Under the pieces are notes generated by a model. That model was not told the origin of the DNA, did not search any database, and saw only the letters and a program-made list of their open reading frames with translations. A program made the position numbers and the translations under genes. From the NCBI GenBank assembly GCA_003158875.1, contig PMLK01000023.1, positions 1 to 33,579 of the forward strand: a DNA stretch of 33,579 bases. Direction: 5' to 3'. The DNA is from Chloroflexota bacterium (GTDB lineage Bacteria > Chloroflexota > Limnocylindria > Limnocylindrales > CSP1-4). Below are positions 6,355-11,682 of the stretch, one piece after another. How positions within the stretch are numbered: position 1 is the stretch's first letter; every line of letters starts with the position of its first letter.

Positions 6355-9300
6355 TCAACTCGCCGCCCCGACCTCGAGTCTCACGAGGCCCTCGCCAAGC
6401 CTGCGTCTAACGTCGGCGAGCAGCTCGGCGTCGTAGGCGACACCGTCGCGCAACTCCATCGGCAGGGTCGAGCCACGTTCGGCGGGCAGGTGGAGGACAA
6501 CCCGCGTGGCACCGGGTCGGGACTTGAAGACGGCGCGCAGCTCCTCCATGGCGGTGACTATTCGGCTCGTGTCGGCGCCGCGCGTGAACCTCACATTCAG
6601 CACGCCCGACGCCGGAGCCTCGATCGGATCGGTCGGTGTCGCAGCGGTGCGAACGGCCGAAGCCACGGCCTCCTCAGGCAGCGCCGACTCCTCTCGCTCC
6701 GGCGCGAACGTCGCGAAATCGTCCGGAGCGGGAGCGGCCGAGATCGGTGCTCGCGGCGACAGCATGGCCGGCGAGCCCGAGGTTCGCGGCGCGGGCAGTG
6801 TCGCGGGCCAGGGCTCCACTCCCCCGCCTCGCAGCGGCGAGACCCTTGTTCGAGACGTTGGCGGAGTTGGATGTGAAGCCTCCGCAGATGCCGTCGCCGC
6901 TGCCGTTTGAGCGGCCACGGGCGGCACAACGGGCGCGGCCACGGGCGGCGCAGGGACCACGGGCGCCGCGGGACGCGACTGGCCGCCGCCGTTGCCATTG
7001 CCGCCGCTATTGCCATTGCCGTTGCCCCAGCGTCGGTTGCCGCGCTGCCTGTCGCCGGCCGCCACTTCCTGGGCGATCGCCGAAGGCCCACGGACGACGG
7101 CGTCCTCCCAGACCCACACACCGTCCGCCAGCAGCGAAGACTCCTCGCCGCGGTGATCGACCCGCCCGGCAATGAGCAGAATCGCGCCGTCGCTGAAGGT
7201 GCCGCCGCTCGTGGCGTACATGCGCGGGAAGACCACCACTTCGAGCGTCCCCTGCAGGTCCTCGACCGTCGCGACGGCCATCGTTTCCTTGTTGCGCGTC
7301 GTGACCGTGCGGATGCCCGTCACGATCCCGCCGATTACGACTCGCTGCCCTTCGAGGGACTCGTCCTTGAGGTCGCCCGAGTAGACCGGGTTGAACGTGG
7401 CCATCTGTTCGGCAATCGAGCCGAGCGGATGCTCGGACAGGTAGAGCCCCATGAGTTCCTTTTCCCAGCGCAACCGTTCGCGTGACGGGGCCTCGGCAAC
7501 CTCCGGGAGCGGCCTCTCGAGACCGGCCGCATCGTCGTCGCCGCCCATGTCGAAGAGCGATGTCTGACCGCTGACTCGGTCCCGCTGCACGGCCTGCCCG
7601 GCGGCCATGGCGTCGTCAAGGGCCGCGAGCAGCTGAGCGGGATGGCCGAAGCGATTCATCGCCCCGACCTTGATGAGCGACTCCATGACGCGCCGATTGC
7701 CGAGGCGCAGGTCCACGCGCGAGCAGAAGTCGGCAAGGGAGTGGAACGGTCCGTCGGCCTGGCGGCAGTCGATGATCGACTGGATGGCGCCCTCTCCGAC
7801 GTTCTTGACCGCGAGGAGCCCGAAGCGGATGGCGTCGCCTTCGACCGTGAATTCGATGAACGAACTGTCAACGTCGGGCGGCCGAACTTCAAAACCCAGC
7901 CGGCGGCATTCGGCCACGGCGGCGGCAACCTTTTCTTCGTTGTCCCGGAAGGCGGTCAGCACCGAAGTCATGTATTCGACGGTGTAGTTGGCCTTCAAGT
8001 ACGCGGTCTGGTAAGCGATCAGACCGTAGCAGGTGGCATGGGCTTTGTTGAAGCCGTAGCGCTCGAACGGCTGGAAGGCATCGAAGACGGCGTCGATGAC
8101 CTGCGGCGTCACGCCTCGCTCGGCAGCCTGGCGGACGAACTTGCCGCGCATCTCGTCCATGAGCGCCTTCTTCTTCTTGCGGATCGCCCAGCCGAGCGTG
8201 TCGGCCTCCGCTCCCGTGAACCCGGCCAGCGCCTGCGAGGCGGACATGATGTCCTCCTGGTAGACGAAGACGCCGTACGTTCGGTTGAGGTAGGGCTCGA
8301 GCAGGGGGTGCAGGTACGTGACCTTTTCCCGACCGTGCTTGCGGGCGATGTAGGTTGGGATGTTGTCCATCGGACCCGGCCGGTAGAGCGCGACCATGGC
8401 TGCCAGGTCGAATACGGTCGTGGGTTGCAGCTCGCGAATGTAGCGACGCATGCCCGCGGACTCGAGCTGGAAGACGCCCGTAGTCTCGCCTTCGGCAAGG
8501 AGGGCGAACGTCTTGGAGTCGTCGAGCGGGATCCGCTCGAGATCTATCTCTTCTCCACGCTCCTGGCGGATGAGGTCGACGGCCTGGCGCAGGATGGTCA
8601 GGTTCGAAAGGCCGAGGAAGTCGAACTTGAGCAGGCCCAGCGCCTCGACGCCGTGCATCTCGTACTGGGTCATGACCCCGTCGGAGTTCGTGGCCTTCTG
8701 GAGAGGCATCAGCTCCGTGAGCGGTTCGCGGCTGATCACGACCCCGGCCGCATGCGTGGAGGCGTTGCGAGCGACGCCTTCGAGATGCCGGGCGAAGTCG
8801 ATCACGCGCCGGACGGCGGGCTCGTTGGCGACCATCTCTTTGAGCGGCGGGCTTGTCTCGATCGCTTCGTCGAGCTTTATGCCGAGCTGGTTCGGGACCG
8901 CTTTCGCGATTCGATCGCCTTCGCCGTAGCTCATTCCTACGACCCGGGCCACGTCTCTGATCGCCGCTTTGGCGAGCATCGTGCCGAAGGTGATGATCTG
9001 GGCCACGTGATCCGAGCCGTACTTGCGGCTGACGTAGTTGATGACCTCTTCTCGACGTCCATCCTCGAAGTCGACGTCGATATCCGGCATCGTGACCCGG
9101 TCCGGATTGAGGAATCGCTCGAACGGCAGCTGGTAGTGGATCGGGTCTACCGGAGTGATGCCGAGGGTGTAGGTGACGATCGATCCGGGCGCGGACCCGC
9201 GGACGGTGATCGCGATGCGCTGGTCGCGGGCGAACTGAGTGAAGTCGGCGACGATCAGGAAGTAGCCGGCGTAGCCCATGCGACAGATGATGTCGAGCTC

Positions 9301-10281
9301 GTAGTCGAGGCGGGCCTGCAACTCGGGCGTGACGATCCGGTAGCGGCGCTCGAGGCCCTTCTGGCACTCCTTGCGCAACCACGTTTCGATGGTCTCGCCT
9401 TCGGGCACGGGGAAGCTCGGGATTCTGAGCTGGCCGAACGGCAACTTCATGTCCACCCGTTCGGCGATCTCGCGGGTCCGGTAGATGGCGTCGAGGTTGT
9501 CGGGGAAGATCGCCGCCATCTCCGCGGCCGATTTGAGGTAGAACTCGTCCGTCTCGAAACGCATTCGATTGGGCGTGTCCAGGTTTGAGCCCGTACCTAC
9601 GCACAGCAGGACGTCGTGGGCATCGTGCTGATCGCGCCTGACGTAGTGCAGGTCGTTTGTGGCAATCAGGTTGACACCGGTCTCACGCGACAACTTCACG
9701 AGCTTGGGATTGAGAGCCCGCTGCTCCTTGAGCCCGTGGTCCTGGAGCTCGTAGAAGAAGTTGTCCTTGCCGAGGATGTCCGCGTAGATACCCGAGACCT
9801 TGCGTGCTTGATCCCAATCGTCGGTTTCCAGGGCCTGAGCGACTTCGCCACCGAGGCAAGCCGAGCCGCCGATCAGCCCTTTGGAGTACCGGGCCAGGCG
9901 GTCGTGGTCGATGCGAGGCTTGTAGTAATAGCCCTCGAGATGCGCGTCGGTGATCAGCCGGCAGAGGTTCTGGTAGCCCTCCCACGTCTGGGCGAGCAGG
10001 ACGAGGTGGTAGGGCTGGCTGTCGGCCTTGCCTTCCTTGTCGAGCATGCCGCGACGGGAGACGTAGGTCTCGACGCCGATGATGGGCTTGATGCCTTTGC
10101 TCGTGCAGGCCTGGTAGAAGGCCACTGCCCCGTACAGCGCACCGTGGTCGGTGATCGCCATCGAGTCGAACCCGAGTTGCGACCCCTGTTCGGCAAGCTC
10201 GTTGATGCGTCCGAGTCCGTCCAGCAGGCTGAACTCGGAGTGGAGATGCAGGTGGACGAAATCGTTCGGCGCGACGCTCAC
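6355..10281 (-). CDS. dnaE: DNA polymerase III alpha subunit
   Basis: This is the replicative polymerase catalytic subunit, 1308 residues. The N-terminal PHP domain has HLHLHSEFSLLDG (10-), DHGALYG (45-) and NDLHY (209-213). The metal-binding His/Asp residues look intact, which in some bacteria gives built-in proofreading. The palm motif PDIDVDFED is at 399-407, and the preceding nucleotide-binding segment reads RGSAPGS (361-367), with Pro where Ala or Gly is usual. An OB fold follows (RVVIGGIVTGIRTVTTRNKE), then about 150 residues rich in Ala, Pro, Gly and Asn (6600-7060), then a compact C-terminal domain starting LNVRFTRGADTSR. This is longer than the usual 1150 or so residues because of that linker. 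The start is GTG at 10281, with no Shine-Dalgarno sequence but TACCAT 7 bases upstream. Confidence 0.98.
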   Translation of the reverse strand: MSVAPNDFVHLHLHSEFSLLDGLGRINELAEQGSQLGFDSMAITDHGALYGAVAFYQACTSKGIKPIIGVETYVSRRGMLDKEGKADSQPYHLVLLAQTWEGYQNLCRLITDAHLEGYYYKPRIDHDRLARYSKGLIGGSACLGGEVAQALETDDWDQARKVSGIYADILGKDNFFYELQDHGLKEQRALNPKLVKLSRETGVNLIATNDLHYVRRDQHDAHDVLLCVGTGSNLDTPNRMRFETDEFYLKSAAEMAAIFPDNLDAIYRTREIAERVDMKLPFGQLRIPSFPVPEGETIETWLRKECQKGLERRYRIVTPELQARLDYELDIICRMGYAGYFLIVADFTQFARDQRIAITVRGSAPGSIVTYTLGITPVDPIHYQLPFERFLNPDRVTMPDIDVDFEDGRREEVINYVSRKYGSDHVAQIITFGTMLAKAAIRDVARVVGMSYGEGDRIAKAVPNQLGIKLDEAIETSPPLKEMVANEPAVRRVIDFARHLEGVARNASTHAAGVVISREPLTELMPLQKATNSDGVMTQYEMHGVEALGLLKFDFLGLSNLTILRQAVDLIRQERGEEIDLERIPLDDSKTFALLAEGETTGVFQLESAGMRRYIRELQPTTVFDLAAMVALYRPGPMDNIPTYIARKHGREKVTYLHPLLEPYLNRTYGVFVYQEDIMSASQALAGFTGAEADTLGWAIRKKKKALMDEMRGKFVRQAAERGVTPQVIDAVFDAFQPFERYGFNKAHATCYGLIAYQTAYLKANYTVEYMTSVLTAFRDNEEKVAAAVAECRRLGFEVRPPDVDSSFIEFTVEGDAIRFGLLAVKNVGEGAIQSIIDCRQADGPFHSLADFCSRVDLRLGNRRVMESLIKVGAMNRFGHPAQLLAALDDAMAAGQAVQRDRVSGQTSLFDMGGDDDAAGLERPLPEVAEAPSRERLRWEKELMGLYLSEHPLGSIAEQMATFNPVYSGDLKDESLEGQRVVIGGIVTGIRTVTTRNKETMAVATVEDLQGTLEVVVFPRMYATSGGTFSDGAILLIAGRVDHRGEESSLLADGVWVWEDAVVRGPSAIAQEVAAGDRQRGNRRWGNGNGNSGGNGNGGGQSRPAAPVVPAPPVAAPVVPPVAAQTAAATASAEASHPTPPTSRTRVSPLRGGGVEPWPATLPAPRTSGSPAMLSPRAPISAAPAPDDFATFAPEREESALPEEAVASAVRTAATPTDPIEAPASGVLNVRFTRGADTSRIVTAMEELRAVFKSRPGATRVVLHLPAERGSTLPMELRDGVAYDAELLADVRRRLGEGLVRLEVGAAS

Positions 10282-10389: not shown

Positions 10390-11682
10390 CTACGCCACGG
10401 GCTCGCGCGGACGCAACTCCCAGGTCGTGCCGTCGGGGGCATCGTGGAGTTCTATCCCAGCCGCCACGAGACGGTCGCGAATGGCGTCTGCGGCGGCCCA
10501 TTCGCGAGATGCCCGAGCCCGGACGCGTTCGGCCAGCAACGCCTCGACGAAGGGCCGCACCACGTCCGCCGGATCGCCACTGCCTACCTCGGCCATCTCC
10601 CCCAGGCATACGATGGCGGCCCGCAGGGCAGATCTGGCGGTGGCCAGCGCGTCGGATTGGTCCGTGTCGTGCGACCACGATTGGATCGTCTCCTCCAGGG
10701 CCAGGATGGCCCGAACCGCGGCCGGGGCATCGCACTCGTCGAGGGAGTTGCTGAAGACGGCTTCGAGCCGGGCTACTTCGTCGCGCAGGAGGCCCGACGG
10801 CGGATCGGCGAGAGTGGCGGACGCCACGGCCGGTGCGACGGACGCCGCGGCCGTGACCCGCGACGAACTCGTGCTGCCGCCACCGTGAGCGGCCGCCGTC
10901 AGATCGGCAATCGTCATCTCGGTCCCGGAGGCGAAAACGGTGCTGCGGCCGTTCTTTCGCACGGTGACACTTCCCAGCCCCATCACCGTCGCCGACCCCG
11001 AGTCCACATCCACGACGAGAGCCGTGTGTCCGTCTACGCCGAGCACGAACACGTCGTCCGGCAGTTCTCCCTCGAGCATCGCCAGTCGCCGTTCGCCCAG
11101 ATAGCAGAACCTCGTGTCGTGGTTCCCGCCTTCGGCGTTGTCGTAGTGCGGCACAACCGCGACCGAGAGACCCAGCGGCGTGAGCAGATCGAGTCCCTCG
11201 AGCCAGTGCGGCGCTTCGCCGACTTTGTAGATCTCGTACACGGGGATGGTGTAGCGCCCCAACGTGAGAGCGGCGGCGCTGGCCATGGTGACCGCCCCGC
11301 CACGGGCCAGCTTGTCGGCGAGGAGGCGCGGAATCTCCGACCCGGCCCATTGCCGCAGCGCGTAGGAGGGGCTTCCGGGACCCGTGAAGACGAGTCGGGC
11401 CTCGCGAATCCGAACCAGAGCGGTCTCCCTCGTGAGGGCGTCCGCGTCGGCCGAGAGGAACGACGCGACGCTGATTGGAGCCCCGACAGTGGTGCGGAAG
11501 TAGTCGACGGTGCGGGCGGTGATGTCCTCGGCGTTCTCCTGAAAGCCGTAGGGCGTGTCGACCACGACCGCTGGAACTGGACGCTCCCCAAGCCTGTCGA
11601 GGATCAAGCGATGAACTTTGGCCATCGTCGGCGTGGTCTCGCCCGAGCCCATGATCGTCAGGATCCGAGGCAGAGCCGTCAT
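10390..11682 (-). CDS. Class I amidotransferase-like (S51-type) domain fused to CysRS C-terminal domain
   Basis: The product has 430 residues. Residues 1-265 match the peptidase S51/cyanophycinase-like branch of the class I glutamine amidotransferase fold: ILTIMGSGETTPTM, GPGSPSYALRQW, then ARGGAVTMASAAAL, where Ser135 sits at the nucleophile elbow, followed by PHYDNAEGGNHDTRF. A Ser/Ala linker (265-298) leads to residues 300-424, which read as the DALR and C-terminal regions of cysteinyl-tRNA synthetase (ECDAPAAVRAILALEETI, then REWAAADAIRDRLVAAGIEL and DGTTW). The synthetase catalytic domain with HIGH and KMSKS is absent. The ATG at 11682 overlaps the hydrolase stop as ATGA, so translation is coupled; the longer frame to 11865 is an overlap artefact. 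A peptidase or amidase acting on a cysteine- or tRNA-related substrate is conceivable, but the function is unknown. Confidence 0.85.
   Translation of the reverse strand: MTALPRILTIMGSGETTPTMAKVHRLILDRLGERPVPAVVVDTPYGFQENAEDITARTVDYFRTTVGAPISVASFLSADADALTRETALVRIREARLVFTGPGSPSYALRQWAGSEIPRLLADKLARGGAVTMASAAALTLGRYTIPVYEIYKVGEAPHWLEGLDLLTPLGLSVAVVPHYDNAEGGNHDTRFCYLGERRLAMLEGELPDDVFVLGVDGHTALVVDVDSGSATVMGLGSVTVRKNGRSTVFASGTEMTIADLTAAAHGGGSTSSSRVTAAASVAPAVASATLADPPSGLLRDEVARLEAVFSNSLDECDAPAAVRAILALEETIQSWSHDTDQSDALATARSALRAAIVCLGEMAEVGSGDPADVVRPFVEALLAERVRARASREWAAADAIRDRLVAAGIELHDAPDGTTWELRPREPVA

Follow-up and report, generated by a model that had tools for sequence, protein, structure and literature searches.

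A conserved fusion of an S51-like hydrolase domain with the anticodon-binding module of cysteinyl-tRNA synthetase, encoded beside an alpha/beta hydrolase

Introduction

Peptidase E, an aspartyl dipeptidase, and the cyanophycinase CphB belong to the S51 family, whose enzymes are mostly dipeptidases. S51 enzymes cut amide bonds after acidic residues, and the clade of MccG cleaves aminoacyl-nucleotides that mimic the intermediates of aminoacyl-tRNA synthetases; MccG itself, an S51 enzyme, cleaves processed microcin C, and its stand-alone homologs protect Escherichia coli (PMC9239234). The catalytic triad is Ser120-His157-Glu192 in peptidase E (PepE) and Ser133-His168-Asp196 in MccG (PMC9239234), and Ser134-His170-Asp198 in Streptomyces Orf2 (PMC11078827). 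The third triad residue is variable across S51 enzymes.

To our knowledge, cysteinyl-tRNA synthetase (CysRS) is usually said to lack an editing domain, and we know of no trans-editing factor that is built on an S51 enzyme, that bears the CysRS anticodon-binding module (CysS_C) or that reads the tRNA-Cys anticodon. In the E. coli enzyme, R427 and D436 hydrogen-bond to anticodon base G34, W432 makes a stacking contact with the base and R423 reaches it via water (PMC12684709, citing Hauenstein 2004).

Here we describe a gene in which an S51-like domain and CysS_C are joined. It lies in a stretch of 33,579 nucleotides from a Chloroflexota bacterium (contig PMLK01000023.1), referred to below as the window. 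Our search of the open-access literature, which also covered stand-alone CysRS anticodon domains and CysS/YqeB C-terminal domain proteins, found no paper on an S51-CysRS-module fusion.

Results

Architecture of the fusion protein

The original prediction for this gene was an S51-type N-terminal half fused to the DALR plus C-terminal region of CysRS (residues 300-424) without the catalytic domain, and coupled to an alpha/beta hydrolase gene by an ATGA overlap. The features of the locus are given in Table 1. Translation gave a frame uninterrupted by stops over the full 430 aa and confirmed the GPGSPSY (residues 101-107) and MASAAAL (containing S135) motifs on which the S51 prediction had drawn. 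The AF2 model of the whole protein was confident (pLDDT 86.8).

Table 1. Features of the fusion gene, its product and the partner gene (window coordinates).
Feature	Residues	Position	Strand	Basis
S51/CysS_C fusion gene	430 aa, ATG start	10390..11682	(-)	Translation; relatives of same length and architecture
ATGA stop/start overlap of fusion gene and alpha/beta hydrolase gene		11679..11682	(-)	Sequence; overlap also common in relatives
S51 (peptidase E/cyanophycinase) fold domain	5-262 (about)	10897..11670	(-)	PF03575 below cut-off; profile match to 6nqc; Foldseek
Presumed nucleophile (ASAAAL)	Ser135	11278..11280	(-)	Invariant; aligned with SAGA serine of 6nqc
Presumed catalytic His (PHYDN)	His179	11146..11148	(-)	Invariant, 86/86; aligned with PHF of 6nqc
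Presumed third triad position: Gly in window protein, Glu (GxDEHT) in most relatives	Gly218	11029..11031	(-)	Alignment and tree
Disordered linker	273-295	10798..10866	(-)	pLDDT < 50
Helical segment, long form only	299-374	10561..10788	(-)	Helices in predicted models
CysS_C, CysRS anticodon-binding module	379-421	10420..10548	(-)	PF23493; Foldseek to 1u0b; conserved signature
Partner alpha/beta hydrolase with GQSWG nucleophile elbow (S168) and invariant H331	360 aa	11679..12761	(-)	Pfam Abhydrolase_6, E = 3e-19

The S51 nature of the N-terminal half was upheld by both profile and structure searches. Pfam Peptidase_S51 (PF03575) matched residues 9-191 at 21.3 bits (E = 2.4e-4), just below its cut-off of 23.9, and we class this half as S51-like and not as a curated member of PF03575. 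Foldseek searches with the whole AF2 model returned S51 structures (6nqc, 3e-13; 3en0, 2e-10; 1fy2, 3e-9; also 6a4r). A profile of 62 family members searched against the PDB matched both the S51 structure 6nqc (E = 1.9e-6) and the CysRS structure 8qhp (E = 8e-12).

At the C-terminal end, Pfam CysS_C (PF23493) passed its cut-off (28.1 bits vs. 23, E = 2.3e-6) and was matched in all 62 close relatives. In a phmmer search of the PDB, E. coli CysRS matched residues 307-422 (E = 2.8e-10). The sole significant Foldseek match of the C-terminal half alone was the E. coli CysRS:tRNA-Cys complex 1u0b (E = 1.2e-4); superposition on it gave a large rmsd across the whole stretch, showing that the helices ahead of CysS_C are placed differently. 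The class I CysRS catalytic domain is absent, as had been predicted, with only positions 344-464 of TIGR00435 matched (36.5 vs. 340 bits).

The assignment of residues 300-424 as DALR plus C-terminal region therefore stood for its CysS_C part (379-421), whereas the DALR identity of residues 300-374 gained no independent support: a profile of residues 296-374 searched against the PDB had no CysRS among its matches, and the DALR family was absent from a Pfam scan of 57 members. The helical segment is conserved and has a motif of its own, WSxDTxQSD. In the linker region (residues 266-297) mean pairwise identity within the family is about 15%.

Because 94 distinct sequences, drawn from three phyla, share this full-length architecture, a frameshift, a chimera or an assembly artefact could be ruled out; the S51-CysS_C fusion is genuine and conserved, and its gene is intact. 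The window's genome has a separate full-length cysS on another contig (C67), and a cysS match over cut-off was found in 20 of 24 carrier genomes, several of these being incomplete MAGs.

Presumed active site

S135 was invariant in all 94 family sequences and in 86/86 of a wider sample; Y149, E150 and K153 were also invariant (86/86 members). Position 218, which aligns with the GIDE motif of 6nqc, is Glu in 76 of 86 members. The Ser-His-Glu triad was assigned by alignment alone. Gly or Ser at position 218 is restricted to the family of the window protein, where every sampled member has one or the other (51 rows), and the loss of Glu218 maps to a single change within this family on the S51-domain tree. 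The Glu of GxDEHT, otherwise near-invariant, has thus been lost from a single Limnocylindria-type family, in which the Ser and His are retained. Because neither Gly nor Ser can act as an acid, another acid or an altered mechanism must be assumed at the triad of the window protein.

Residues of the CysS_C module that correspond to G34 contacts

Alignment to E. coli CysRS equated R386, R390, W395, D399, R402 and D414 with E. coli R423, R427, W432, D436, R439 and D451, respectively. R386, R390 and D414 were present in 81/81 module-bearing members, in which residue 395 was always aromatic (W, F or Y), and D399 and R402 were present in every such member aligned at those positions. All 19 of 19 CysRSs from these genomes retained R427 and D436, with an aromatic residue at 432. 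The retention of G34-contact residues across the module-bearing members indicates that the base-recognition pocket is preserved in the module. An enzyme acting on tRNA-Cys or on a cysteinyl conjugate, as originally suggested, would fit these conserved residues. CysS_C is retained even in members without the extra helices.

A second non-CysRS carrier of CysS_C occurs in the window's genus, where an N-terminal CysS_C-like module is fused to a GT2-like glycosyltransferase (identified by eye; L117:487-1668 on contig C38 of the window's genome, and L224-L239). The R/R/W/D signature is also kept in 16/16 of the GT2-fused CysS_C modules of the genus, so it may reflect the module itself and not tRNA-Cys binding; a guanine ligand common to these proteins may occupy the pocket, or the pocket may have a partly structural role.

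Partner hydrolase and other neighboring genes

The predicted ATGA coupling was found to be one instance of a pairing conserved across phyla. By tblastn, 67 of 80 close relatives have an alpha/beta hydrolase gene immediately upstream, its stop overlapping the start of the fusion gene by 4 bases in 43 of the 67 and by 1 base in 16. Distant members have hydrolases that share the GQSWG and VDGGF motifs in rearranged positions beside the gene, either directly downstream (L211), upstream and overlapping (L189) or adjacent on the opposite strand (L195, L215). These rearrangements favor a functional pair over inherited gene order. As the hydrolase adjoins the gene in so many close relatives, mostly with an overlap, and does so in other layouts too, the fusion protein and the alpha/beta hydrolase probably work together. 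The pairing is not obligatory, since many short-form genomes have no alpha/beta hydrolase neighbor. The nearest solved relative of the partner is 3kxp, an N-acetylaminomethylene-succinate (C-N) hydrolase (E = 2.7e-22).

None of the neighbors that recur across lineages was recognized as tRNA- or translation-related, or as a microcin C or nucleotide-antibiotic gene. DNA polymerase III alpha was rejected as a partner, adjoining the gene only in close relatives of the window; its product, encoded at window positions 6355-10281, carries an extended stretch of low complexity, inserted at about residues 1080-1210 ahead of its C-terminal part. Zn ABC-transporter genes, ctaA and DUF2017/clpS-type neighbors (named by eye) were seen in single lineages and were read as synteny. 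The DUF2017-like gene (by eye), of the kind that adjoins clpS, lies near the fusion gene in some Actinomycetota (L053, L060, L061, L023). A link to mycothiol was also rejected as not general: Actinomycetota carriers have a second partial CysRS match, whose MshC-like identity is judged from the extent of the match, and the window's genome has none.

Distribution and history of the family

Numerous bacteria of soil and freshwater carry a member of the family. A single scan of species genomes gave 367 relatives; the best 80 are fusions, and they come from Chloroflexota, Actinomycetota and a single Dormibacterota genome. Taxonomic placement drew on kinship codes and record titles, some group names being inferred from that of the reference locus. 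Within the window's genus most genomes have the gene. Across its phylum 50 of 201 sampled genomes carry it, as do 39 of 119 sampled from the class of an Acidimicrobiia-type carrier; a full-length gene was found in 10 of 149 genomes of the order of Kineosporia. Two annotated Streptomycetaceae plasmids were examined, and on both the annotation reads ‘hypothetical protein’.

This large family has short, long and module-less forms. The 86 aligned members comprise five with the S51 domain only (~270 aa), 31 short forms with S51 domain, linker and CysS_C (~345-390 aa), and 50 long forms, the window protein included, which have the helical segment in addition. The S51-domain tree required 6 architecture changes, compared with a mean of ~30 after shuffling; the architectures are therefore clustered and old. 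The window's family grouped with Actinomycetota long forms and away from its sister family, which has the short form; this suggests operon transfer between phyla, the branch support of 83 being suggestive only. In the window's order, genomes of ~1.1 Mb (L174-L177) encode S51 plus CysS_C without the helical segment and without an alpha/beta hydrolase neighbor.

Discussion

The joining of S51/MccG chemistry to the anticodon reader of CysRS points to a hydrolase that would be directed to tRNA-Cys or to a related conjugate of an amino acid and a nucleotide. Our preferred reading, to which we assign a probability of about 0.35, is that the S51 domain would act as an amide or ester hydrolase, docked by CysS_C on the tRNA-Cys anticodon or a related guanine ligand, and would cleave an aminoacyl-type conjugate of the tRNA or of a nucleotide, for which MccG sets the precedent. 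In its favor are the presence of CysS_C in every close relative and its retention without the extra helices, the conserved G34-contact residues, the invariant S135, H179, E150 and K153, and the alpha/beta hydrolase next to the gene in more than one layout. Through CysS_C the enzyme would sit on the tRNA-Cys anticodon loop, or the same pocket would hold some other guanine-containing ligand, and the flexible linker would allow the S51 active site (Ser135 and His179, with Glu218 in most relatives) to reach the amino-acid conjugate. The conjugate to be hydrolyzed would be either a tRNA carrying an aminoacyl or acyl group or a free aminoacyl-nucleotide, and the operon-coupled alpha/beta hydrolase would then act on the same substrate or on its product. 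The existence of S51-only members implies that the S51 core is able to work without the module. These members, together with the loss of Glu218 in the window's family, the signature kept in GT2-fused modules and the lack of any recognized tRNA- or translation-related gene among the neighbors recurring across lineages, count against a hydrolase docked on tRNA-Cys. It seems unlikely, from what the sequences offer, that the proteins form a new class of tRNA-Cys-directed serine hydrolases, in which a captured CysRS module has recruited the S51 enzyme to tRNA-Cys and which would act in trans, with the co-translated alpha/beta hydrolase, either to clear tRNA-Cys of incorrect or modified acyl groups or to harvest a metabolite derived from Cys-tRNA.

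A different reading, which we rate as equally probable, takes the S51 domain as a small-molecule amide or peptide hydrolase that carries out a two-step degradation with the alpha/beta hydrolase; CysS_C would then be a mobile helical hairpin for protein contacts or dimerization which has lost RNA binding. The dipeptidase activity of most S51 enzymes, the C-N hydrolase (3kxp) as best solved relative of the partner, the presence of CysS_C on a GT2-like protein and the occurrence of S51-only members are all consistent with this. However, the G34-contact residues are as strictly kept as in CysRS, a degree of conservation that a generic scaffold should not require.

We consider it improbable that the protein detoxifies aminoacyl- or peptidyl-nucleotide inhibitors of aminoacyl-tRNA synthetases, or abortive aminoacyl-AMP, in the manner of MccG and with CysS_C serving to sense a nucleotide or a tRNA. 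The microcin C cleavage by MccG, the protection that its homologs give to E. coli (PMC9239234) and the patchy distribution of the family fit such a role, but the recurring neighbors include no recognized microcin C or nucleotide-antibiotic genes and the gene, which is chromosomal, is conserved across most of the genomes in the window's genus. Less probable still is a pseudo-enzyme adaptor in the window lineage, binding its ligand rather than cleaving it after the single loss of the triad Glu seen as Gly or Ser in all 51 sampled rows, as that same family keeps S135, H179 and the motif around them without change and the third residue is Asp in other S51 clades (PMC9239234; PMC11078827), so that another acid may serve.

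With a widespread hydrolase that has the exact G34-contact residues of CysRS, trans-editing at the tRNA-Cys anticodon becomes testable. The preferred reading of a hydrolase docked by CysS_C would place S51 enzymes, recently found through MccG to cleave aminoacyl-nucleotides, beside translation in two large phyla. In the annotated records that were examined, the genes of this family are labeled ‘hypothetical protein’ at best; they can now be assigned a consistent partner enzyme.

Comparison with known systems

Each of the two parts of the protein is of a known kind; the open-access papers searched describe neither their combination nor its breadth or its partner. With the S51 peptidases (peptidase E, CphB and MccG) the family shares the fold, the positions of Ser and His and, in most members, the GxDE motif. 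It differs from them in having SAA and not SAG after the nucleophile, in its PVYEIYKVG and HDTRFCY motifs, in the C-terminal CysS_C and in a Pfam S51 score slightly below cut-off, and the window lineage differs further in lacking Glu218. With the anticodon-binding domain of CysRS (CysS_C, E. coli ~403-461) it shares sequence, fold and all G34-contact residues, whereas the catalytic domain is missing, the equivalent of Glu450 is His, Arg or Gln, and the preceding helices are not recognizably DALR. The S51 fold and serine chemistry are shared with MccG, in which the triad acid is Asp in contrast to the Glu, or Gly/Ser, at the aligned position of the fusion family. An anticodon-binding module is absent from the described MccF, MccG and other aminoacyl-nucleotide hydrolases. 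With free-standing trans-editing factors, the fusion protein would have in common the idea of a tRNA-guided hydrolase that stands apart from the synthetase.
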